Of a stretch of DNA of 34,281 nt, positions 2,007 through 28,127 are shown in pieces. Position 1 is the stretch's first letter, and the number at the start of each line of letters is the position of its first letter. Made by a program: the position numbers and the translations under genes. Source of the DNA: Nitrospiria bacterium. GTDB lineage: Bacteria; Nitrospirota; UBA9217. The notes beneath the pieces were generated by a model that saw nothing but the letters and a program-made list of their open reading frames with translations, was not told the DNA's origin and ran no database searches. The DNA is taken from the NCBI GenBank assembly GCA_919902495.1, contig CAKKRC010000084.1, forward strand, positions 1 through 34,281. The letters are read 5' to 3'.

Positions 2007-3578
2007 TCAGCTCTGTGAATGGCCACCGATCCGCGCGACAGGACGGGTTCCTGATGCCAGACGCGGCGCCCCGTGAGCCCTGCCGTCGAGCTTGAAGAAA
2101 TCGGTCATCTCCCGCAGATGATCGGCCTGGGAGGAGAGCTCTTCGGCCGTCGAGGTCATCTCCTCGGCCGCGCCCGCGTTCTGCTGGATCACCTGATTGA
2201 GCTGAAGGATCGCGCTGTTGATCTGGTCCGCGCCGGAGGTCTGCTCCTTGCTCGCCGCGCTTATCTCCTGCACCAGTTCCGCGGTCTTCTGGATGTCCGG
2301 CACCAGCTTCTCCAGCATGGAGCCGGCCCGTTCGGCAACTTCAACGCTGGACCCGGAAAGCTGGCCGATCTCCGCCGCCGCAGTCTGGCTCCTCTCCGCA
2401 AGCTTCCGCACCTCGGCGGCCACCACGGCAAACCCCTTGCCATGCTCGCCTGCCCGCGCCGCCTCGATCGCCGCGTTCAGCGCAAGAAGGTTCGTCTGGC
2501 GGGCGATCTCCTCGATAATCGATATCTTTCCGGCGATCTGCTTCATGGCCCGGACCGAATCCGATACCGCGTCGCCGCTCTCCCGGGCATCGGCCGCCGA
2601 TTTGCGGGCGATCTTCTCGGTCTGGCTGGCATTGTCGGCGTTTTGCCGGATCGTCGCGTTCATTTCCTCCACCGCCGACGACGCCTCCTCCGCGGACACC
2701 GCCTGCTCGGTCGCATGCCGGGACACCCCATCCGCGCCCGAGGAGAGCTGCTGGCTTCCCGAGGCGACGCCTCCCGCGGCGGTCTTTACGCCCGCGACCA
2801 CCATGCGCAGCCGTTCGACCATGGCATTGAGCGCGCCGGCAAGCCTTCCCACTTCATCATCCTGATCGACCTCAAGATCTTTGCTGAGATCGCCCTCCGC
2901 GATCATGTGGGCGAACGTGACCCCCTTGTCGAGGGGCCGCGTGATGGAGCGGGCAATGATGAACGCCAGCGCCAGACCCAGGACAACGGCGAAGATGCTG
3001 AAGACGAGCACGGACGTCCGTGTCTTGAGGGCTCTGTCCAGCATGATCTCTTCGGAAAGAATATGCTCTTTTGAGAGCGCCCCCATTTTCTTTAACTGGA
3101 CCTGCACCGCTTCCAGCTGGGGCAGGGTATCCTTTACATACGCATCGCGGGCCTCCTGCATCCTTCCTCCGAGGCGAAGTTTCAGGATACGCGCAGCAGT
3201 CTCATGCAGCCGCCGATGCGGCTCCTCGATCTCCGCCAGCGGGGTCTTCAGGTCGGCGAGCAGCTTCTCCGCGACGCTCCTGCCGTTCCCGTAATACCAT
3301 TTTCCGAAACCGCACTGGGTATGGTCCAGTTGTGCCTTGAGCTCCCTGGCCGAGTCGTCATAGACGAACCTGCCGACGGTCTGCGCCCAGGTCAGGTGGT
3401 CAACTTCCCGCTGCAGCAGCTCCCCCCTGAGCTTGTTGCCGCCCGCCACTTCAAGCCCCCCCTCCACGATCTTGCTGATCCCGTAGATCGACCATGTGCC
3501 GACCAGGGAGAGCATGATGAGTGCGCTCCCGATGCCGACCATGATCTTTTTCCCCAGCTTCAGGTTCTTCCATTGCAT
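2007..3578 (-). CDS. Methyl-accepting chemotaxis protein with periplasmic CZB-type zinc-binding sensor
   Basis: A 523-residue transmembrane chemoreceptor. Order: TM1 (about 12-34), periplasmic sensor (35-188), TM2 (189-209), HAMP, then a long cytoplasmic signalling coil with the canonical hairpin tip ([19 protein letters not shown]). The sensor contains the ligand pattern of a chemoreceptor zinc-binding domain: H61xxW64, C89GFGKWYYG and H121xxxH125. CZB domains bind zinc through one Cys and three His and respond to zinc or oxidants such as hypochlorous acid; that ligand here is inference. Start: ATG at 3578 has AAGGAG eight bases upstream, so the longer frame to 3653 is rejected. A good sigma-70 promoter lies at 3639-3667. 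There is no C-terminal CheR-tether pentapeptide. Confidence 0.93.
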
Positions 3579-3638
3579 ACGATGTTCTCCTTGATGCGAA
3601 GCGTTCCTCTCTTGCTCAAGTGCGAACAGACTGCGTGT

Positions 3639-3667
3639 AGTATAACATTGCATTTTATGCTATTCAA
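3639..3667 (-). promoter_or_regulatory. Sigma-70 promoter for the CZB chemoreceptor
   Basis: On the minus strand: -35 TTGAAT (3662-3667), 17-base spacer, -10 TATACT (3639-3644), about 60 bases upstream of the ATG at 3578. The spacer holds a GCATAAAATGC palindrome (3650-3660) that could be an operator. Confidence 0.6.
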
Positions 3668-7211: not shown

Positions 7212-9230
7212 TTACGTTTTCTCGATCACGAACAGCAGCTGCTTCTCCCGGACCGTTTCGTTCAGCTTCACGCAGACCTCGGCGATACGGCCGTCAAAAG
7301 GCGCAAGAACGGCGTTCTCCATCTTCATCGCCTCAAGGTTCGCCATCTCTTCGCCCTTCCGGACGACGTCATCCACTTTCAGGGCGCCGCGGCCCGGATT
7401 GCCGATCCGCCAGACGCTGCCGTTGATCGGCGCGCCGACATCGCCGGCCGCCTTGGCCATCCGCACCTCGGTCTTCTTCGCCCTCGGGGTCTCCACGGTG
7501 TACACCCGGGTCTTGTTGTTCACGCGCATCACGACATCGATGATCCCGTCGTGCTCTGCCCCGACGGAGACCAGCTCGAGAGAGTGGGGCTTGCCCCCGA
7601 GCTCGAAGTCGACCTGCTCGCCCGGTTTCCGGAGCCCTTCGCGCCATACATCCGTGGGGAGCACGAGCGGCGCCTCGCCGAACTTGTCGCGGAACTCGAA
7701 GTACTCCAGCGCGTCCTTGGGATGCATCAGCCACAGGATGAACTCCTCGTCCGTTACATCCCTCCCGAGGGTCTCGCCAAGCTCCCGGCGGAGCCGGGCG
7801 AGGTCGTCCTCGGCGACCGATTCGAGCGGCGAGAGCTCCTTCCGCTCCCGGACCTTCGCCTGCCAATCCTCGCCGAAGGCGCTCCGGTACACCCAGTCCG
7901 CGGGCCAGCCGACCGGCAGGCGGCCGTAGTTGCCGAGCAGCAGGTTCTTGAAATCGCCGGGCGCGTTCCGGAAGAGCAGCAGCAGCTCCTCCTGCTCAGG
8001 CCTGGTCATGGCGTCGAGGTCCTGGACCTTTTCCTCGACGAACTTCACCATAAGTTCGATAATGTGCTGAACTCCGACGTCGCCGCGCTCCTTGGCGTAC
8101 TTGTTCACGATCCCGCTGCAGGTCACCCAGGTGATCTGGGAGCCGGGCGTGACGTCGAAATACTTCACGATGCGGTTGTACAGGGACATGAGCTTCAGGA
8201 CCGCCGGCATGAGGTGCAGGAACTCGGCCTTCTGCGCCTGTTCGAAGGAGCTGGGGAACGCGCCGCCGGGCATCTTATGGAGCGTGACCGTGTGGTCCAA
8301 TCCTTTAAAGGGCGACTCCGCCCAGTCGTAATCGCTGATCCACTCGCGGACCTTCCGGACCGCGGCCTCCGCTTCCTGCCGGTCCATATGCACCGGGATC
8401 CCCGATTCCTCGAAGATCGCCTGCACGGCGAGGATGGGCGAATGACCGTAGAACCGGACCAGCGAGTCCTCTTCCACGTCGAAGATGGTCGCGCCGGCCT
8501 TCGCGGCGGACAGCAGGGCCGGGATCGCCAACCCGTCGGTGATGTGGCGGTGGTAGTTGATCACCAGGCCCGGGTACGCCTGCTTGATCGCGCTGATCAG
8601 GTTGCCGATGCGGGTCACATCGCCCACGCCGGCCATGTCCTTCACGCACAGCACGATCTCGTCCGTGCCGCCGCAGAGGTCCACGATGTCCCGGACCGTT
8701 TTGAGATAGTACTCGTTCGTTGCCCAGTCGGCAACGGTGAAAGATATGGTGGGCTCGAAGAGCCTCCCCCGCTTCATCACCACCTCGGCGACCGCGCGCA
8801 TGTTCCGCACGTCGTTCAGGAAGGAGAAGCAACGCCACACGTCGATGTCCACGGCGCCGACGGCCTCCTCGATCACGTTCTTCGGATAGGGCCGGTAGCC
8901 CCAGAGGTTGGTCTCGCGGATGAGGGTCTGGAGCAGCACGTTCGGCATGAGCTTCCGGAGCAGCGCGGTCTCCTCGAAGGGGCTTTCCCGACGGTTCATG
9001 ATGCCCACATGCCAACGGGCGCCGCCGTGGCACTCGGCGCTGAACAGTCCCATGCGGTCGTAGTGCGGCGCCAGGGTCTTGAGATCGTGGATGCGGTGGC
9101 GGTTTTTGAAGTCCGACTGCCCGGCGTCGCGCATTCCGACGGAAGTGAAGCAGGCCCCCTTGAGGGCGCGGAGGGCCTTGATGATCTCTTTGGGCGACAT
9201 GCCCGGCTTGACGAATACAGGGTCGTTCAT
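7212..9230 (-). CDS. pycB: Pyruvate carboxylase subunit B-like carboxyltransferase with biotin carrier domain
   Basis: A 672-residue protein. Order: HMGL-like TIM-barrel carboxyltransferase domain (about 10-290), conserved carboxylase/PYC_OADA domain (about 300-500) and a C-terminal biotinyl domain with the biotinylation motif EAMKMEN. The catalytic carbamylated-lysine region is present (CVKDMAG), as is the metal-binding HxH (NYHRHITDG). Several usual substrate-site residues differ: the common RDAHQS is RDAGQS, GGATFD is GGARWH, and HTHDTxG is YHRHITDG. The acceptor may therefore not be pyruvate; oxaloacetate decarboxylase or 2-oxoglutarate carboxylase large subunits are related alternatives. 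The start at 9230 (MNDPVFVK) has AGGA five bases upstream. It follows the carbonic anhydrase gene by 14 bases. Confidence 0.85.
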   Translation of the reverse strand: MNDPVFVKPGMSPKEIIKALRALKGACFTSVGMRDAGQSDFKNRHRIHDLKTLAPHYDRMGLFSAECHGGARWHVGIMNRRESPFEETALLRKLMPNVLLQTLIRETNLWGYRPYPKNVIEEAVGAVDIDVWRCFSFLNDVRNMRAVAEVVMKRGRLFEPTISFTVADWATNEYYLKTVRDIVDLCGGTDEIVLCVKDMAGVGDVTRIGNLISAIKQAYPGLVINYHRHITDGLAIPALLSAAKAGATIFDVEEDSLVRFYGHSPILAVQAIFEESGIPVHMDRQEAEAAVRKVREWISDYDWAESPFKGLDHTVTLHKMPGGAFPSSFEQAQKAEFLHLMPAVLKLMSLYNRIVKYFDVTPGSQITWVTCSGIVNKYAKERGDVGVQHIIELMVKFVEEKVQDLDAMTRPEQEELLLLFRNAPGDFKNLLLGNYGRLPVGWPADWVYRSAFGEDWQAKVRERKELSPLESVAEDDLARLRRELGETLGRDVTDEEFILWLMHPKDALEYFEFRDKFGEAPLVLPTDVWREGLRKPGEQVDFELGGKPHSLELVSVGAEHDGIIDVVMRVNNKTRVYTVETPRAKKTEVRMAKAAGDVGAPINGSVWRIGNPGRGALKVDDVVRKGEEMANLEAMKMENAVLAPFDGRIAEVCVKLNETVREKQLLFVIEKT

Positions 9231-18849: not shown

Positions 18850-19257
18850 CTACAGCCGTCCGGTCTGGACCTGTTCGAGCATCCTTGTGCTCAGTCCTTC
18901 TGCGACCGCTTCGCGAACGGTCCTCAGCAGCGCGCGAAGGCCCACCGGCTTGCCTATATACCGGACGACACCGAGGTCCGTCGCGCAGAGGTAGCTTTCC
19001 AGGTCTCCGTGACCGGTCATGATCATGACCGGCACAGCCAGCCGCATCTCCTTGATCCGCCGGACCAGCGTGAGCCCGTCCATGCCTGGCATCCGGTAGT
19101 CGACGATCACGAGATCGATGTCTGCGCGCTCCTGCAGTACCATCAGCGCCGACTGGCCGTCTTCTGCCATGATCACACCGTAGTCCGAGCGCGACAGCAT
19201 GTCCCCTACGGTCCCGCGGACCGCAGGATCATCATCCACCACAAGGATCGTGTCCAT
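18850..19257 (-). CDS. Single-domain response regulator (CheY-like receiver)
   Basis: A 135-residue stand-alone receiver. Acidic cluster VDDD near the N-terminus, phosphoacceptor Asp in LVIVDYRMPGMDG, conserved Thr in MIMTGHG and Lys in YIGKPVG. There is a short C-terminal tail (EGLSTRMLEQVQTGRL) but no output domain. It could serve as a CheY for the adjacent chemoreceptor, or take phosphate from the hybrid kinase encoded downstream; sequence alone does not decide. GAGGGG lies six bases before the ATG. It follows the small 19305-19616 gene by 47 bases, consistent with one transcript. Confidence 0.93.
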   Translation of the reverse strand: MDTILVVDDDPAVRGTVGDMLSRSDYGVIMAEDGQSALMVLQERADIDLVIVDYRMPGMDGLTLVRRIKEMRLAVPVMIMTGHGDLESYLCATDLGVVRYIGKPVGLRALLRTVREAVAEGLSTRMLEQVQTGRL

Positions 19258-19304
19258 TCATACCCCTCATTCCGGCCTTTGGCGTGTGATCGTTCGAAAG
19301 CCGG

Positions 19305-19616
19305 TTATCTGCGGCACCGCAGTTCCTGGTAGAGCCCATCCCGGATCGCCCTGATGCTGCTCTCCAGGGCGAAAAACCGTTCAGCCATGTTGCTGTTGAC
19401 ACCGTGTTCTCTCAGTTCGACGCGTTCTAGTTCGTTCAGAACAAGCTGCGCCCGCGTCAGTGAGTTCGCCGCCTGCTGCACATCCTGGAAGCTCAGCGGT
19501 CCTGATTCGCGCAGTATAATTATCTCTTTTGACAGGCGCTCGATGCACAGGGCAAGATCATCGGCCTTCTCTACATTGTGGGACAGTATCATGGCATACT
19601 GTTCAGGTATTAACAT
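19305..19616 (-). CDS. Small helical hypothetical protein in the chemotaxis cluster
   Basis: A 103-residue all-helical protein (MLIPEQYAMILSHNVEKADD...). No membrane segment, no cysteine motif and no recognised family. The heptad-like spacing (LALCIERLSKEIIIL, ALESSIRAIRDGLYQEL) suggests a helical hairpin. The Shine-Dalgarno is weak. Its position between CheW and the receiver gene, in the same direction with 47 bases to the receiver start, suggests a small accessory to that receiver. Phosphatase, tether or HPt-like roles are possible, though no HPt motif (HxxKG) is present. Confidence 0.65.
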   Translation of the reverse strand: MLIPEQYAMILSHNVEKADDLALCIERLSKEIIILRESGPLSFQDVQQAANSLTRAQLVLNELERVELREHGVNSNMAERFFALESSIRAIRDGLYQELRCRR

Positions 19617-19779
19617 AGGATTTCTGATGCAAGCGGGCTTCCTGTCGCATCGCTGCTGCGGCTTCGCGCGCCCCTCGTAGAATTTTCTCTTCGGCTTCAG
19701 GTCTTTTCAATGACATGAAGCTTTCCCCTGGTCGAGGCAAACGCTCACATGCCTGATAATCGTCCTTACACCGGTATCG

Positions 19780-20286
19780 TTACGCGCCGACGGTTGGCTG
19801 ATCCGCCTGGAGGGTCGCCAATTCATCGGTGGAGAACACCTTGTCGATGTCCAGGATGATGATGAAGCGGTCGTCCCGTTTGCCCATGCCTTTGATGAAC
19901 TCCGTCTTGAGCTTGGTCCCGATCTTGGGCGCCGGAGCGATATTCCCGGGCTCCAGGTCCAGAACTTCCTGCACCGAATCGGACAAGGCCCCCAGGATTG
20001 TCGTGTCGTTGTCCACGGTCACCTCGGTGATAATGATGCAGGTGTTCACGCCGTTCTCGGTCTTCGACATCCCGAACTTGAGGCGCAGGTCCACCACCGG
20101 CACCACGCTTCCCCGCAGGTTGATCACGCCCCGCATGAACTCCGGCGTCCGAGGCACCTTGGTCACGGTGGTGAAATCAAGGACCTCCCGCACTTTGGTG
20201 ATGTCGAGCGCGAACACCTCGTCGCCAAGCTTGAAGGTTAGGTACTGGGTCGTCTGGGTCATCTCTGCTACGCTCATGGAAGCCAT
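19780..20286 (-). CDS. cheW: Chemotaxis coupling protein CheW
   Basis: A 168-residue CheW, linking chemoreceptors to CheA in the cytoplasmic array. The two SH3-like subdomains are recognisable: TTQYLTFKLGDEVFALDITK VREVL at the start, VPRTPEFMRGVINLRGSVVPVVDLR in the centre (the NLRG loop that contacts receptors), and RFIIILDIDKVFSTDEL near the end. AGGAGG lies five bases before the ATG. It lies 111 bases downstream of the chemoreceptor gene 20398-22146 and was probably made with it. No cheA is present in the window. Confidence 0.96.
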   Translation of the reverse strand: MASMSVAEMTQTTQYLTFKLGDEVFALDITKVREVLDFTTVTKVPRTPEFMRGVINLRGSVVPVVDLRLKFGMSKTENGVNTCIIITEVTVDNDTTILGALSDSVQEVLDLEPGNIAPAPKIGTKLKTEFIKGMGKRDDRFIIILDIDKVFSTDELATLQADQPTVGA

Positions 20287-20397
20287 GGTTACCTCCTGAA
20301 CATGCAGGGTTCAGGGTGGAGGGTATCGGGTCCCGGTAAACAAACTATTTCCCGTCCTCATTGAACCCAGTACCCTGATTCCTGGCCCTGCTATTCG

Positions 20398-22146
20398 TTA
20401 GAATTTCACGAACTCCTCATCCATTCTGTCGCCTTTCCCGTGGCCTTTCCCGCCAAGGTCGAGATGCACACCTTGTAACGTCGTTTTTTTATTTCGATGA
20501 GGGACCAGGGCGGGCCGGGCATGCTGCGCAAGCCATGGAGCCTTGTCTGATTTTTCAGGCAAAGCCTCGTGCTCCGCAGACTCCACCTTGAAGAAGGAAA
20601 CCATATCTTCAAGGTTCTCCGCCTGGCCAGCAAGTTCCACGGCCGTGGACGCCATCTCCTCGGCAGCGCCCGCGTTCTGCTGCACCACCTTGTTCAGTTG
20701 CTGCAAAGCATTATTGATCTGGTCCGCGCCGCCCGCTTGCTCTTTGCTTGATGCGCTGATCTCCTGCACCAGCTCCGCCGTTTTCCGAATGTCCGGCACC
20801 AGCTTCGAAAGCAGTACGCCCGCCTGCTCCGCAATCTCGACGCTCGACCTTGATAATCCGCTGATCTCCGCGGCCGACGTCTGGCTCCGTTCCGCCAACT
20901 TTCGCACTTCAGCCGCCACGACCGCGAAACCTCTCCCATGGTCTCCGGCGCGCGCGGCCTCGATGGCCGCGTTCAACGCCAGCAAATTCGTCTGGCGCGA
21001 AATCTCTTCGATGACGGATATCTTTCCCGCGATCTCCTTCATGGCCGACACCGTGAGCGAGACCGCCTTGCCGCTCTCCTGCGCATCGCTCGCGGACTTG
21101 AGAGCGATCTTTTCGGTCTGCATGGCATTGTCGGCATTCTGGCGGATCGTGGCATTCATTTCCTCGATCGACGACGATGCTTCTTCCGTAGACGCCGCTT
21201 GCTCGGCGCTCCCCTGGGAGAGCTGTTCGGTTCCCTCAGCGATCATCCGCGCGTTCTGTGAGGTCTTCTGCGCGCTCATGCGGATCTGGGATATGAGGCC
21301 TCGAAGATCAGAAACCATTTTCGCCGCCGCCTGGGCAAGACCACCGATCTCATCCCGGGACTGCATACTTCGGTCCGTGAGGACCACCACCCGCAGGTCG
21401 CCCTCCGATATCCGCTTGTTCATATCGGCAAGCCGGCTAACGGGTGTTATTATCGATTTCCCGATTAACAGCACCACCCCCACGACAATGATGAAGACCG
21501 CGCCATTGACGGCGAGCAGCAGCGCCAGCATTTTCCCGGCGAGAGACTGCGCATTCGCCTCCAGTTCATCGTTCTCCAGGCCAGTCATCATGACGAGACT
21601 GTCTATCTGTTCGATGAATCTCCCGTAACGCTGCTCCTGGATGCCCGTGGCCAGGTTCCGCGCGGCTGCCCGGTTACCTGCCGCTACAGCGGGAAATAGT
21701 TCGTTCTCGGTTGTCTCAATGAATGCAGACCAGGTCGTCTTGGTGTCCAGCACCGTCACCTTCTTTTCCTCGTTCTGCATAGCCGACAACAGCCCTGCAA
21801 AACCGGACTCGATGTCACCTTTCAGGTCGGTCATGCTGGCCCGGACCTGGGCGGCCTTGTCCTTTTCGGACTCATCGATAATAATGGACAGCTGGGCTCG
21901 ATAGTGGTTCAGTTTCGAGCCCAGCTTGGCGATGTTCTCAAGAATGTCCTTGTTCACCTTGATCTTCTGGTACAGGTCGCTCCCGATCCTAACCTTGGAA
22001 AGCAGGAAGACACCGGAAAAGGTCGATGCCGCCAGCCCGGCCAGCACGATCAAGCTCAACAGCCAGAGTTTGTTCCGCAGCTTGATATTCTTGAGTGGGG
22101 CCGTGACGGCCTGCACTATGCTGGTTATGACTGAGGAAAGTTTCAT
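20398..22146 (-). CDS. Methyl-accepting chemotaxis protein with C-terminal CheR/CheB-tether-like tail
   Basis: A 582-residue receptor. Order: TM1 (about 27-50), a helical periplasmic 4HB-type sensor (about 51-205), TM2 (about 207-230), HAMP, and a cytoplasmic signalling coil with an almost canonical tip ([19 protein letters not shown]; the usual Glu is Asp at the last position). The last 35 residues form a Gly/Lys-rich linker ending EEFVKF. EFVKF matches the x-[HFYW]-x2-[HFYW] pattern of the pentapeptide that tethers CheR or CheB. GGGAGGG precedes the ATG. It follows the PstS-like gene by 59 bases, so this receptor may read the state of that binding protein (inference from context). Confidence 0.94.
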
Positions 22147-22205
22147 GATCGGCCCTCCCTGTATCCGCCCCAGGGTTACCGGGGGCGGAGCTTTCCTTTC
22201 TGTTG

Positions 22206-23033
22206 CTATTTTTTTACAGGAACAAAATTAATGCCCACGATCTTCTGTCCTTCCGGCGACAGCATGAAATCGATAAAGCTCTTCACATCACCTTTTGGCA
22301 GACCCAGCGTCACGAGCAACAGCGGCCGTGAGATCAAATAGGCCCCGGACTGGATGTTGGCGGCCGATGGTGCGATACCGTTCACGGTTACCGTCTTGAC
22401 ATTCCCGCGCAGATCGCCGCTCACCGCGGCCAGCAGCCCGAAGCTCACGCTGCAGATCGAGTTCTCGTTTTTGGCGACATCAACGATCTGATCGCGGGGA
22501 AAGTCTATTTCCTTGAAACCCGAGCCGTAGGAAGCGTTATCCATGGCCATTTCCTGGAATGCCATCATCGTCGCCCGCTTCTCACCCGCGATCTCGGTGT
22601 TCGGCTGTATCGGTGCGTCCTTGCCGCCAACTTCCTTCCAATTCTTGATCTTCCCGGTGAATATACCCTTGATCTGTTCTTTCGTGAGATTGTTGACAGG
22701 ATTGTTCTTGTGAACGAATACCGCGATGGCATCATAGCCAATGGCCGTCCCCAGCAATTTCTTCGCTTTTTCCTCCGACTTCAGCGTGCGAGACGCGCCC
22801 GCGAGAGTTACTTTCCCATCGAGCAATGCCTGAATGCCCTTGCCTGATCCCGGCTGTTCGACGGATTTGAACTTGATCCCCGTCTTCTGTTCAAAGGCCT
22901 TTACCGCGCCCGCGTCCAGGACCGACATGCCAATCGTCGATGAACCGCTGTAGGAAAGTTCATCAGTCGCGAATGACGCGCCCGCCAGCGTCACCATGAA
23001 AATCACCACTGCCAACCAGATCTTGTTCAGCAT
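22206..23033 (-). CDS. PstS-like periplasmic substrate-binding protein
   Basis: 275 residues from ATG 23033, with AAGGAGG six bases upstream. A Sec signal peptide ([20 protein letters not shown], cleavage about residue 22) precedes a type II periplasmic binding fold of the PBP-like/PstS family: [57 protein letters not shown] and LSPEGQKIV. The usual phosphate loop of PstS (R-x3-SGT) is replaced by [10 protein letters not shown], so the ligand need not be phosphate. No ABC permease or ATPase genes follow; instead a chemoreceptor and CheW do. That points to a sensing role rather than, or in addition to, uptake. The gene sits downstream of a sigma-54 promoter candidate. Confidence 0.88.
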
Positions 23034-23173
23034 AACAGCCTCCTTTTGAATGACCTCGAATTTGAAGCCCGATAAACAGCTTTTAAAAGCCCGCAAGATA
23101 TCAATTACGTGCAAGTTCAGGTATGGGCAATAAACTGTACGAAGCCCTTGGTTATATGGCCAGTACTGCCTGT

Positions 23174-23189
23174 TGCATCATCCATGCCG
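23174..23189 (-). promoter_or_regulatory. Sigma-54 (-24/-12) promoter candidate
   Basis: On the minus strand CGGCATGGATGATGCA: GG and GC separated by exactly ten bases, matching TGGCAYRNNNNTTGCW except at the first T and one T of TTGC. It lies about 140 bases upstream of the PstS-like ATG, and two palindromes lie 55-90 bases further upstream. The gene just upstream encodes a sigma-54 activator. Confidence 0.55.
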
Positions 23190-23243
23190 AAACGCATTTG
23201 CTTGTAATTGCTAAATAAATGCGCGCCTCACCTGAATGGACTC

Positions 23244-23278
23244 TGATAATTATCAAGAAGGGTGATAAGGAATTATCA
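23244..23278 (-). promoter_or_regulatory. Paired TGATAA/TTATCA palindromes, putative enhancer (UAS)
   Basis: Two inverted repeats with identical arms: TGATAATTATCA (23244-23255, no spacer) and TGATAAGGAATTATCA (23263-23278, four-base spacer), with centres about 21 bases (two helical turns) apart. The position upstream of the sigma-54 promoter candidate is typical of activator binding sites. Confidence 0.6.
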
Positions 23279-23323
23279 AATTGAGATAGGAGGGGGAGAT
23301 AAAACAGCGAAAGGTTGATGTTC

Positions 23324-24646
23324 CTATACGTCTGCAGACCCCATGCTCTTGAGCCGGCGGTAGAGCGTTGCCTGGGACATGCCGAGGAGCTTTGCCGCCT
23401 TGACAACGTTGCCGCCGCACTGCTTCAATGCGTTCTGTATGGCATCGCTCTCCATGACGTCAATGGTGCCCTGACTTGCCGCCTGATCCGCTTGCGCCGT
23501 GTCCCAGAGTCCGGTGAAATGCTGCGCCGTCAGCTCTTTGCCGCGCGCCAAGAGCACCGCCCGCTCGATCAGATATCTGAGCTCCCGGATATTGCCGGGC
23601 CAGGAGTAGGACGAGAGGAATTCCATGATCCCGTGCGCTATGTCGCGGTACTGGTAATCGCATGCGGCAAGGAAATGATGGACCAGCGGTGGTATGTCGT
23701 CCCGGCGCTCCCGGAGGGGAGGAATGTGGATCGGCAGCACCTGCAGCCGGAAGAGCAGGTCCTTCCGGAATCGGCCCGCCTCGACCTCGGCCTGCAGGTC
23801 CCGGTTAGTGGCGCAGATCAGCCGGAAATCGCTCTTGCGCACGCGCGTATCGCCCAGCCTGCGGTAGGTCCTGTCCTCGATCACCTTCAGGAACTGGGCC
23901 TGTATGGACAGGTCCATGTCGCCGATCTCGTCGAGGAACAATGTACCCCCGTCGGCGGCCTCCAGGAGTCCTGGCTGGTCCTGCACGGCCGACGTGAAAG
24001 AGCCTTTCGCGTGGCCATACAGTTCGCTCCGCAGGAGCTCGCCGCGGAAGCTCGGGCAGCTCACCTCCACGAACGCACCTTTCCTCCGGTTCGAGCTTTC
24101 GTGGATCCATCGGGCCAACACGCCCTTTCCGACGCCGGTCTCTCCCGTGATCAGCACCGGCCCGTCATTCTCGACGGCGACCTGTGCTATCTCCAGCGCT
24201 TTGCCCATGGCCGCGCTCGTGCCGAAGAAGAACGGACCCTTTTTCTTCAGCAGGTCGCTGGTCTGTGCCAATCGGCGGAGTGAGACCACTTCAAGGCTTT
24301 TCTCCAGGAAAACGGCGAGTTCCTTGAGCTGGACCGGCTTGGTCAGGAAGTTATCGGCCCCCTTCTGCATTGCCTCAACCGCGAGCGGGATGTCCGCCTG
24401 GCCGGTGATCATCACGATGGCCGCCGTAGGGTTGGCGGAGCGCACGTCATTGATGAGCTCGACGCCCTTGCCGTCGGGAAGGTACTGGTCGATGATGACC
24501 GCTTGAAAATCCGTGCGCGCAAGCCTCTCCCGCGCCGCTGCGAGCGACGGGGCCGTTGTTACCGCGTAGTTCAACCCGGTAAGGAACTTTGTGAACAGGG
24601 ACAGAACCGACTGTTCATCATCGATAATGAGGATATCGTGCTTCAT
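23324..24646 (-). CDS. Sigma-54-dependent response regulator, NtrC family
   Basis: 440 residues. Receiver domain (1-118; phosphoacceptor D53 in IIDQYLPDG, T81, K103), AAA+ domain (about 140-370; Walker A GETGVGKG 168-175, Walker B GGTLFLDEIGD with D239/E240, sensor ATNRDL), and a C-terminal Fis-type helix-turn-helix (about 395-435, NVVKAAKLLGMSQATLYRRL). The sigma-54-contacting loop, GAFTGA in most relatives, is GSFTSA (215-220); the key Phe-Thr pair is kept. The start at 24646 is chosen because the receiver fold begins at once; its ribosome site is weak. The palindromes and sigma-54 promoter directly downstream suggest it controls the PstS-like/MCP/CheW unit. No cognate kinase is fused or overlapping. 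Confidence 0.93.
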   Translation of the reverse strand: MKHDILIIDDEQSVLSLFTKFLTGLNYAVTTAPSLAAARERLARTDFQAVIIDQYLPDGKGVELINDVRSANPTAAIVMITGQADIPLAVEAMQKGADNFLTKPVQLKELAVFLEKSLEVVSLRRLAQTSDLLKKKGPFFFGTSAAMGKALEIAQVAVENDGPVLITGETGVGKGVLARWIHESSNRRKGAFVEVSCPSFRGELLRSELYGHAKGSFTSAVQDQPGLLEAADGGTLFLDEIGDMDLSIQAQFLKVIEDRTYRRLGDTRVRKSDFRLICATNRDLQAEVEAGRFRKDLLFRLQVLPIHIPPLRERRDDIPPLVHHFLAACDYQYRDIAHGIMEFLSSYSWPGNIRELRYLIERAVLLARGKELTAQHFTGLWDTAQADQAASQGTIDVMESDAIQNALKQCGGNVVKAAKLLGMSQATLYRRLKSMGSADV

Positions 24647-24698
24647 AACGCTCGTGTACATATGGCTCGAACTGAGGAGCAAAGGATATCATGTATAT

Positions 24699-24770: not shown

Positions 24771-25394
24771 TCAGCTACGCCGCGGCAGCGTCATGCACCG
24801 TGCCCCCGTGCGGGCCTCTTGCTCCAGCCGGGCCCCCGCTCCCTCACCAAAGACGAGCTCGACCGCTTCCACGAAGGCTGGGGAAAGATGGTTCGATCCT
24901 TTCCGCGCGGGGGCAGTGCAGCCATAGGTCAGCGCGTCGCCGGCAAGCGACAGGACCTCATCGCCTTCGGACAGGCTCATCGGCCAGAGCAGGCAGGCTT
25001 TCGGTTTGACCTTCTCCAGGGGAAGTCCGAGGTTCATCCCGGCCGTATGCAGGGAGCACCTTATTGTATGACCCTCCACGTAGGCGAGCAGGCAGAGTCC
25101 GTCCTCGGTCGTATCAAGGGCGTGCAGGCCGGGCTCCACGTACTCGAACACGTTGTCGTAACCGCGATCCGTCTTGAGATGCGGGCAGAGCCTGGCGGCC
25201 TCCGGCAGGACCTGGATGATCCGCTTCATTTCCGCGTTGGTAACACAGACCTCGTAGGACGAACAGCAGCAGGGCTCGTCCTCTGAGCAACCTCTGCACC
25301 GGTGCTCGACCGAACGGAGCGACGCAAGATCGACCGACACCGTTCCCTTTCGCCTGGCCGGCCGCGGTTTTCGTTGATGGTGGTTCGAACTCAT
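24771..25394 (-). CDS. Cysteine-cluster protein (YkgJ/DUF3109-like)
   Basis: 207 residues from ATG 25394 (MSSNHHQRK), with AAGGG eight bases upstream. The N-terminal part is basic. A cluster of cysteines follows (HRCRGCSEDEPCCCSSYEV), then single ones in RLCPHL, GLCLLAY, IRCSLH and ACLLWPM, and a late TYGCTAP. This pattern resembles the YkgJ/DUF3109 families, thought to bind zinc or an iron-sulfur cluster; function unknown. It lies between the degenerate kinase gene (149 bases upstream) and the NtrC-type regulator, all in one direction. That could make it a metal- or redox-dependent partner, though context is the only support. Confidence 0.75.
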   Translation of the reverse strand: MSSNHHQRKPRPARRKGTVSVDLASLRSVEHRCRGCSEDEPCCCSSYEVCVTNAEMKRIIQVLPEAARLCPHLKTDRGYDNVFEYVEPGLHALDTTEDGLCLLAYVEGHTIRCSLHTAGMNLGLPLEKVKPKACLLWPMSLSEGDEVLSLAGDALTYGCTAPARKGSNHLSPAFVEAVELVFGEGAGARLEQEARTGARCMTLPRRS

Positions 25395-25487
25395 GAATAA
25401 TCCCTTCCAAGCAAGTTCAAATTGTATTTTTTGCCCGCCGATAACAGTTACGCTCGGACATGCCAACATGCCACGTTCAAGACTTGG

Positions 25488-25543: not shown

Positions 25544-28045
25544 TCAGGGTACGAGCGGCAGATATACGGTGAAGGTGCTGCCCTGGCCTGGCCGGCTCGC
25601 TACCGTGATATACCCCTCATGTTCCTTGACGATGTCGTAGACCATGGACAAGCCGATCCCGCTTCCCTTCCAGTCCCCCCGCGTCGTGAAGAATGGTTCG
25701 AAGATCCTCTCCTGCTCCGCCGCATCCATGCACTCTCCGACATCGCTCACGGATACCGTGGCGTATGCTCCGATCCTTCCATACCCGGTCCGCCGGATGA
25801 AGGCGGCGTCGATCGCCGCCCGGGCTGTGGACACGGTGACGTCGCCTCCCCGCGGCATCCGGTCACGCGCGTGGGCCGCGAGGTTCATGAGCGCGCGCTC
25901 CATCTTGACGGGATCGGCCATGACCGTCAGCGGTCCGGAGGAGGACCGCATCACGAGCGTATACTTCCCGGTCAGCAGCGAAGCCAGTATCTGCTGTCTT
26001 TTTTCGACGAGATCGTTCACGTCGTGAAGGGCCCGCTTCGTCTCCGTGCTCGCGCCGAACTCCTTCAGGGTCCGGATAAGGACCTCCGCCTGCTCCATCG
26101 TGGACTGGACCTTCCGCGCCAGTTCAGCGTGACGCTGGCCGTCTTCGCCATGCTCCCGGAGCTTCGTATCCAGGCGCAGGTCCTTGAACATCCCCTCGAG
26201 ATCGCCGGAAAGATGGGCCGCCATCCTGCCGACCGCGTCCCGTATCTTTTCATAGCGAAGTTTGCCTTCGGTCCGCTTGTGCTCCGTCAGGTCGAACAGG
26301 ATCCACATGGCTGCCGCCCGCTCGCCGAACTCTATGACCGACGACGTCATGACGGCCCGACGGTCCAGTCCGTTCCGCCGGAGCACCCGCATTTCCTTCT
26401 GGGCATGGCCCGGCTGCGGCTTGACGTGTGCGAGGCTGTTGGGCTGAACCGCGCCCTGGTCATCGGGATGGATGATCTCGCGTATCGGCATCGCCATCAG
26501 CTGCGCCCGCGAATAGCCCGTCATATCCTCCGCCGCGGTATTGGCGTAGACGACCGACTCTCCCCGATGGATAAAGACCGCGGCAGGCATTTTCTGGGCC
26601 AGCGTCATAAAGCGCTCTTCGCTCTCCTGCAGCGAGGACCGTATCTTGCGGGCGATATCGGCAAGCCTCGCATTTTCCAGCGCGCTTGCCGCGTGCGCGG
26701 CCAGCGTTTCGAGGAACCCGACGTCGCTCTGGCCGAACGCCTCGCCGCTCACCTTGGCGCCGAGGACCAGCGCCCCCTGGAGCCTTCCCTGGAACAGGAG
26801 CGGCACGAGCGCCTCGGCCCCGATCCCCCGCATATAGGTCTTGAGGCGAAAGATCTCCGGGTCCTCTTCCGACCCGGGCATCACCGCCAGGACGAGCGAC
26901 CGGTCCGTCTCCAGCAGCTTCTTCACCGCCGCGTCGGCAAGGGAGCCCCGGCCCTGCATGTCCAGGAAGAGACCGCGCCCCTGCCGCAGGATGAAACCGT
27001 CCTCAACGTGATGGAGGAAGACCCCCGCGTCCCTGATGCCCGGCCCGGCGCACGTCGTCTCGATCAGATACGCGATCAGCTCGTGCTCCTCCTTTTTCGC
27101 GTTCAGGGCCACGATCGCCTCGCGCGTCAGCGTCTCGTAATTGTAGCGGTTGCCGATGATGAGGCTGTTGACGAGGGATTGCACCTTCCCGGTGACCGGC
27201 GTTCCGAACAGAAAGAAACCGAGGACCGCGAGGGAAATGAAGCTTGACATCCCTGTTCCGAAAGCGGGATCGATCGCCGTCAGCAGGGCCGCCTGGATCC
27301 CCGAGAACACAACGATCAAAATGAGGATGCTGAGCGTCCGCGAGACGATGATGCGCATCTCGAAGAGACTGTGCCGGACAATGGCGTAAAAGGTGAGGAC
27401 CACCCACGGCAGGCCGAAATAGGACCCCAATCCCGGCTCCACCCCTGAACCCCAGACCGCCGGCATGATGCCCGCGATCGTCACACTGCCGAGCGCGAAG
27501 ATCAACGCGCCGTATAAAAAATAATCGAGCTGGAACTTCTTGATCCCGGTCAAATGACGTCTGGTGCGAACGATCTCGACGACAAACCAGAGGATCATGA
27601 GCGCGCCGATGACGCGCGCGGGCACCTCAAGGGGGCCGGGATGGTTCCTGTAGGGGATCAGCGAATACCCGGGGGTGACGATCAGATCGGTGAACAGGCA
27701 GAGGGCCAGGATGGCCGTCCAGTAGGGATACAGAAGATGACCCACCCTGCGGGCGGCCCGGCTCGTTTCGGACCGGAGATAATAGAGGAATTGCAGGCCC
27801 GCAGGAATGGCGAACCACCCGATCCAGTTCAGCCGGGCGAAGAAGATAAAATCGTACCCGCGTGACGACGAGAGATACATGACCGCGGTATTCAGGGCGT
27901 AGGCGGAGGAAAAGAACGCGATGGCCGCGACCGAGCGGTGCACGGGATTGCTTCGCCTGCTCTGGCCCAGCAGCAGGAATCCCAGAAGAAGCTCCATCGC
28001 GGCGATCGGCAGGAGCGGGTACGCGATGATCTCAAAACTGTTCAT
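25544..28045 (-). CDS. Multi-TM/GAF/PAS histidine kinase-like protein with degenerate catalytic core
   Basis: 833 residues from ATG 28045 (MNSFEII); GAGGAG lies ten bases upstream. An N-terminal 7-8-helix membrane region (about 5-285) of the HisKA_7TM kind is followed by a GAF domain (about 305-460), a PAS domain (about 473-592), a dimerisation-like segment (600-665) and an ATPase-like domain (about 705-830). Aligned with the intact kinase of this window, the phosphoacceptor His is Gly (RMAAHLSGDLEG against [13 protein letters not shown]614), the second N-box Asn is His (NLAAHARD; H725), and G1 reads DVGECM instead of DTGxGM. G2 (KGSGIGLS) and the FEPFFTT loop are kept. It is probably a pseudokinase that senses and signals through protein contacts. 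Confidence 0.9.
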   Translation of the reverse strand: MNSFEIIAYPLLPIAAMELLLGFLLLGQSRRSNPVHRSVAAIAFFSSAYALNTAVMYLSSSRGYDFIFFARLNWIGWFAIPAGLQFLYYLRSETSRAARRVGHLLYPYWTAILALCLFTDLIVTPGYSLIPYRNHPGPLEVPARVIGALMILWFVVEIVRTRRHLTGIKKFQLDYFLYGALIFALGSVTIAGIMPAVWGSGVEPGLGSYFGLPWVVLTFYAIVRHSLFEMRIIVSRTLSILILIVVFSGIQAALLTAIDPAFGTGMSSFISLAVLGFFLFGTPVTGKVQSLVNSLIIGNRYNYETLTREAIVALNAKKEEHELIAYLIETTCAGPGIRDAGVFLHHVEDGFILRQGRGLFLDMQGRGSLADAAVKKLLETDRSLVLAVMPGSEEDPEIFRLKTYMRGIGAEALVPLLFQGRLQGALVLGAKVSGEAFGQSDVGFLETLAAHAASALENARLADIARKIRSSLQESEERFMTLAQKMPAAVFIHRGESVVYANTAAEDMTGYSRAQLMAMPIREIIHPDDQGAVQPNSLAHVKPQPGHAQKEMRVLRRNGLDRRAVMTSSVIEFGERAAAMWILFDLTEHKRTEGKLRYEKIRDAVGRMAAHLSGDLEGMFKDLRLDTKLREHGEDGQRHAELARKVQSTMEQAEVLIRTLKEFGASTETKRALHDVNDLVEKRQQILASLLTGKYTLVMRSSSGPLTVMADPVKMERALMNLAAHARDRMPRGGDVTVSTARAAIDAAFIRRTGYGRIGAYATVSVSDVGECMDAAEQERIFEPFFTTRGDWKGSGIGLSMVYDIVKEHEGYITVASRPGQGSTFTVYLPLVP

Positions 28046-28127
28046 CCGATAAAGGCTCCTCGCCCGGGATCCGTGCGGGGTCGCATGGTGCACGGACAGG
28101 CTCGACACGCAGGTTCATGCGACATGG

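Follow-up and report, generated by a model that had tools for sequence, protein, structure and literature searches.

A gene for a full-length histidine kinase-like protein with Gly in place of the phosphoacceptor His raises the question of whether its kinase region is decaying, is still active through another residue, or is maintained for a role that does not need catalysis. The gene studied here lies in a stretch of 34,281 nucleotides, below called the window, from a 3.67-Mb assembly of 110 contigs and 97% completeness. An earlier reading of the window, below called the original prediction, proposed a retained pseudokinase and drew attention to a nearby NtrC-type regulator gene. We compared the gene and its product with those of other genomes of the order, asking what has been lost, since when and under which constraint.

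Gene Structure and Domain Layout

The minus-strand ORF (25544–28108) is unbroken over 854 codons from a GTG at 28108, in agreement with the original prediction of an intact frame. Close similarity to the orthologue described below sets in at the ATG at 28045 (MNSFEIIAYPLL in the window, MNPFEIIAYPLL in the orthologue), which makes this ATG the likelier start and lends the originally assumed start better support than the GTG. Residues are numbered along the 854-aa product from the GTG, so that a His originally counted from the ATG as H611 is H632 here.

Table 1. Features of the pseudokinase locus in the window
Feature	Coordinates	Strand	Remarks
NtrC-type sigma-54 response regulator	23324..24682	(-)	Two genes downstream of the pseudokinase; partnership not supported
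Pseudo-histidine-kinase gene	25544..28045	(-)	833 aa from ATG at 28045; ORF open up to GTG at 28108
Multi-TM sensor region	27194..28030	(-)	Residues 27–305 (854-aa ORF); nine hydrophobic segments, hydropathy scan
GAF domain	26669..27106	(-)	About residues 335–480; Pfam GAF/GAF_2
PAS domain	26273..26641	(-)	About residues 490–612; Pfam PAS, NCBIfam sensory_box
Degenerate DHp domain	26009..26272	(-)	About residues 613–700; acceptor His is Gly635; alignment and residue table
H-box GDLEG in place of HDFNN	26192..26206	(-)	Residues 635–639; alignment and residue table
CA (HATPase_c) domain	25550..25996	(-)	About residues 705–853; N2 is His746, second G1 Gly is Cys793

Pfam models for GAF, PAS and HATPase_c matched the pseudokinase, the last of these also being found in the three other proteins tested, namely the orthologue and two intact hybrid paralogues (L010 and L002). 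The Pfam HisKA model was detected in neither the pseudokinase nor its orthologue, whereas both intact paralogues carried it. The sensor had originally been described as 7TM; the membrane part of this description stands but the count does not, as no Pfam 7TM model matched the pseudokinase and a simple hydropathy scan gave more segments (Table 1), and we refer to it as multi-TM. The two complete copies, in the window and in G011, both end after the CA domain, with no remnant of a receiver downstream in either. Intact full-length paralogues whose sequence does not run into a contig end carry a C-terminal receiver, a feature that the original prediction had overlooked.

Sensors of the same family were also found in other combinations. 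Six of the family's genomes encode stand-alone TM-GAF proteins of about 500–540 aa that are related to the pseudokinase sensor and lack any output domain, be it a kinase or another (L042, at 7363–8862 of G000 contig 14, and L023, L024, L027, L028 and L029). In the window genome's gene of this kind, similarity to the PAS region runs about 37 residues past the stop codon, as if an output had been truncated. In L003 (G000 contig 50) and its relatives L016, L017, L021, L022 and L025, this TM-GAF-PAS sensor comes with another type of kinase (HisKA_3, tested in L003), and the sensor family thus has more than one kind of output.

Orthologues and Their Distribution

The best match elsewhere lies on contig 215 of G011 (the same contig as MHEA01000215.1, Nitrospirae bacterium GWC2_57_9), from another genus of the same family, and is 67% identical to the window copy over the whole length. 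A further orthologue in G006 is 73% identical over 413 residues; its contig ends in the GAF domain, before the kinase region, and its C-terminal half was found on no other G006 contig. It contributes nothing on the acceptor His, leaving one complete orthologue besides the window copy. A scan of genome contigs recovered one true orthologue, on the same contig as in G011, and otherwise weak HATPase matches.

The gene is present in 3 of the 14 genomes of the order. In the window it sits between the genes for an RluA-type pseudouridine synthase and a Cys-rich protein, after which comes the NtrC-type regulator gene. As G006 keeps pseudouridine synthase, methyltransferase and MFS genes upstream of the pseudokinase in the same order, the window locus is probably its ancestral position. 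In G001, which belongs to the same genus as the window genome, there is no pseudokinase gene and the Cys-rich gene comes directly after that for the pseudouridine synthase; this absence at the same locus in a sister species, together with the presence in few genomes, shows that the protein is dispensable. The G011 copy lies in a different neighbourhood, adjoining two genes, one for a beta-propeller protein and one with CxxCH haem motifs. No Pfam or NCBIfam model matched the neighbouring Cys-rich protein of 232 aa (24771–25469); of the other 13 genomes of the order, 10 encode a homologue at 52–80% identity.

Lost and Retained Catalytic Residues

Intact hybrid kinases of the family (981 aa, G000 contig 4; 1036 aa, G005 contig 121) share the domain order of the pseudokinase and are 42–46% identical to it over nearly the whole length, but they retain HDFNN, all N-box and G1 residues and the C-terminal receiver. 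Aligned with such relatives, the window copy has Gly635 at the phosphoacceptor position, Glu638 for the Asn at H+3 and Gly639 for the Asn at H+4, the phosphatase position. The last is Arg in the orthologue, and neither copy has the Asn or Thr of HisKA transmitter phosphatases there. The second N-box Asn is replaced by His746 and the second G1 Gly by Cys793. Unchanged are the acid after the acceptor position (D636), the first N-box Asn (N742), the Asp and first Gly of the G1 box (D789 and G791), the F-box FEPFFTT and all three G2 Gly (815, 817 and 819). The substitutions and intact boxes named in the original prediction are thus borne out. The H-box aligns with intact relatives without gaps, so the loss of the His is not an alignment error, and its recurrence in an independently assembled orthologue shows that it is not an assembly error either.

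The G011 orthologue has Ala at the acceptor position, Gly at H+3, Arg at H+4 and Glu at the second G1 Gly, and it retains the second N-box Asn. Of the changes for which conservation was in question, the losses of the acceptor His, of both H-box Asn and of the second G1 Gly are therefore common to both copies but the N-box change is not. The N-box Asn of histidine kinases helps hold Mg-ATP. The loss of ATP-site residues originally proposed is accordingly partial: the second G1 Gly is gone from both copies and the second N-box Asn from the window copy only, while the remaining N, G1, F and G2 residues are kept within a HATPase_c domain that is present. The CA domain probably retains its fold, and some weak binding of nucleotide is possible; ATP binding is uncertain because the window copy has lost the N-box Asn, though the orthologue keeps it. 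A structure prediction of the DHp-CA region from three sequences (mean pLDDT 49.5) was too poor for judging the ATP pocket or the dimer interface.

The retained acid after the acceptor position, most of the G1 box, the F-box and G2 would suit a kinase that is still active through another acceptor residue, for which H632 had been proposed. At this position, however, the orthologue has Tyr and all other sequences have Gly, so H632 is not a conserved acceptor; no His common to both copies was found in the first DHp helix, and the Asn residues at H+3 and H+4 are lost as well. We regard continued kinase activity by this route as highly improbable.

Rewriting of the DHp Domain and Selection on the Kinase Region

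In a tree of the TM-GAF region, the three orthologues group together with 100/100 support among the intact hybrid kinases, the exact sister group of their clade being unsure (80/58). With the topology fixed, the stem branch of the two complete copies accounts for 38% of the DHp tree, compared with 10% for TM, 13% for GAF and 11% for CA; when columns were resampled, this share was 26–48% for the DHp and did not exceed 19% for any other domain. The rewriting is specific to the DHp, the domain carrying the phosphoryl group, and the CA of the clade evolves at a normal pace. After the split, the DHp has evolved faster than in intact kinases and its tips are fairly long (0.50 and 0.20), indicating that its constraint has not returned to the level of an intact kinase.

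Pairwise codon likelihood for the two complete copies, a single pair of sequences on which all our omega figures for the pseudokinase rest, gave omega of 0.22 for the DHp, 0.18 for the CA and 0.19 for the two together, the last far from neutrality (LRT 74 vs. omega 1). Separate fits (0.19 vs. 0.10) hinted that, since the split, constraint had been relaxed more in the kinase region than in the sensor, but we rejected this: in a joint fit with shared divergence, omega was 0.12 for the sensor and 0.14 for DHp+CA (P = 0.22), and an intact kinase pair from two species of the window's genus shows the same pattern (0.08 and 0.11). Measured against that on the sensor, constraint on the kinase region is therefore about as strong as in an intact kinase.

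These figures bear on whether the DHp and CA domains are a relic that decays slowly without function, the protein persisting for its sensor part or by inertia. The patchy presence in the order, the clean absence from the sister species, the long DHp tips and the different residues at the lost sites of the two copies (G/A, C/E and H/N in the window and G011, respectively) would all fit such decay. A relic is less readily reconciled with a gene that is full length and unbroken in two genera, with an omega of the kinase region that is far from 1 and does not differ significantly from that of the sensor, and with the normal pace of the CA, and we consider it unlikely. The data support a maintained pseudokinase and not an isolated mutant, as the original prediction held: the orthologue in another genus also lacks the His, the clade is fully supported and the kinase region is under purifying selection.

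The NtrC-Type Regulator and the Search for a Partner

The original prediction connected the pseudokinase with the NtrC-type regulator encoded two genes downstream on the same strand, which has no adjacent kinase in the window. The two genes nevertheless occur apart in every other genome having either. The closest homologues of the regulator, at 71–72% identity, are in G010 and G004, both without a pseudokinase orthologue, while G011 has no homologue of it above 38%. Just before the regulator gene in the window there is moreover a promoter-like site, which is a consensus match only. With gene linkage across genomes against it, we rejected the regulator as a partner and hold joint action of the two proteins to be quite improbable.

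In G010 (contig 197), a MASE3-type histidine kinase (L082, 6397–7896) is encoded directly upstream of the 72% regulator orthologue; as a lead to a partner it was discarded, the window genome having no orthologue of it. The recurring neighbours of the regulator homologues are chemoreceptor genes, in G010 also CheW, as in the window, which suggests that regulator and chemoreceptor genes form a recurring unit. In the window, chemoreceptors, CheW, a single receiver, a solute-binding protein and the NtrC-type regulator are encoded near each other (18850–24682 and 2007–3653). Among the genomes compared, neither linkage nor co-occurrence allowed a partner for the pseudokinase to be named.

Comparison with Known Systems

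Histidine kinases without the His are not new. About 1% of sequenced histidine kinases are substituted at this residue (PMC5361649), and DivL of Caulobacter, with Tyr for His, is without kinase or phosphatase activity, has a weak affinity for ATP and acts as a sensor of DivK~P (PMC4211667, PMC5361649). With 54 places in the window genome matching the pseudokinase query at E up to 1e-5, mostly other kinase-like genes, one such protein is unsurprising at that rate. The pseudokinase resembles DivL in being a multi-domain PAS/DHp/CA protein with a replaced phosphoacceptor His and a retained CA (PMC4211667, PMC5361649); it differs in having Gly or Ala instead of Tyr at the acceptor site, and DivL has defined partners in DivK and CckA. 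We saw no sign of orthology to DivL, the core being nearer to CckA by sequence: the closest solved DHp/CA chains are those of CckA (5idj, 104 bits; 5idm), the DivL chain 4q20 being further away at 44 bits. CckA models are also the best NCBIfam match for both the pseudokinase and its intact paralogues, but the pseudokinase lacks the catalytic His, the H-box Asn residues and the receiver, and its 139.9 bits compare with a curated CckA cut-off of 1000. The match to PrsK, the XrtA/PEP-CTERM histidine kinase (TIGR02916), is likewise below its cut-off (105.6 vs. 300 bits).

Two further systems offer models of how such a protein could signal. A frameshift variant of ChrS from Corynebacterium glutamicum is catalytically dead and signals through a paralogous kinase; it is laboratory-evolved, with the CA destroyed and the His kept (PMC9491836), whereas here the His is lost and the CA retained. 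RetS of Pseudomonas is a model for one sensor kinase regulating another, GacS, but it takes phosphoryl groups and acts as a phosphatase (PMC5992135), neither of which is expected of the pseudokinase since its H-box is lost. By analogy, the pseudokinase may work like DivL, the ChrS variant or RetS.

Discussion

The reading that we favour, at a probability of roughly 0.62, is that the gene encodes a regulatory pseudo-histidine-kinase that arose once within the multi-TM/GAF/PAS hybrid kinases of one Nitrospirota family and acts non-catalytically by contact. Comparison with these kinases shows what went missing when it arose: the phosphoacceptor His, the phosphatase Asn and the C-terminal receiver. 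As the kinase region is full length and under selection, we infer a non-catalytic mechanism, with neither kinase nor phosphatase activity. The TM/GAF/PAS part would sense a signal and cause a shape change in the presumably dimeric DHp/CA core, which would in turn either pair with an intact paralogous hybrid kinase, such as the 981-aa kinase, or bind a response regulator in the manner of DivL. Each genome bearing the pseudokinase has at least one intact paralogous hybrid kinase, and heterodimerisation with a true kinase would be plausible. The most likely targets would be these paralogues or a response regulator, the nearby NtrC-type regulator not being favoured.

A special form of action by contact is that the DHp/CA core has become an input domain, sensing a phosphorylated response regulator by binding its receiver without phosphate transfer. 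DivL, with a CckA-related core, sets the precedent; the rewritten part is the DHp, the domain at which receivers dock; and single-domain receivers exist in the window genome, one of them at 18850–19257. No candidate receiver is linked to the gene across genomes, however, and the pseudokinase and the NtrC-type regulator do not co-occur, so we put this forward tentatively, as possible but rather doubtful. It is a sub-case of the contact-acting pseudokinase, and our data cannot separate the two. In an improbable variant, the CA would be a working ATP-dependent half-kinase or nucleotide sensor that takes its input from the multi-TM/GAF/PAS part and drives a paralogous hybrid kinase in trans, the rewritten DHp serving as a docking surface only.

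Pseudo-histidine-kinases are an already known, uncommon kind of protein, exemplified by DivL, of which the Nitrospirota protein is a further member. As the host is uncultured, tests would have to be heterologous. Only a small number of bacterial pseudo-histidine-kinases have been investigated, and the protein would add a maintained example from Nitrospirota. Since its genome also encodes a full-length intact paralogue, and since change is concentrated in the DHp while the CA is kept, it would allow a clean comparison of what a histidine-kinase fold does without phosphotransfer.
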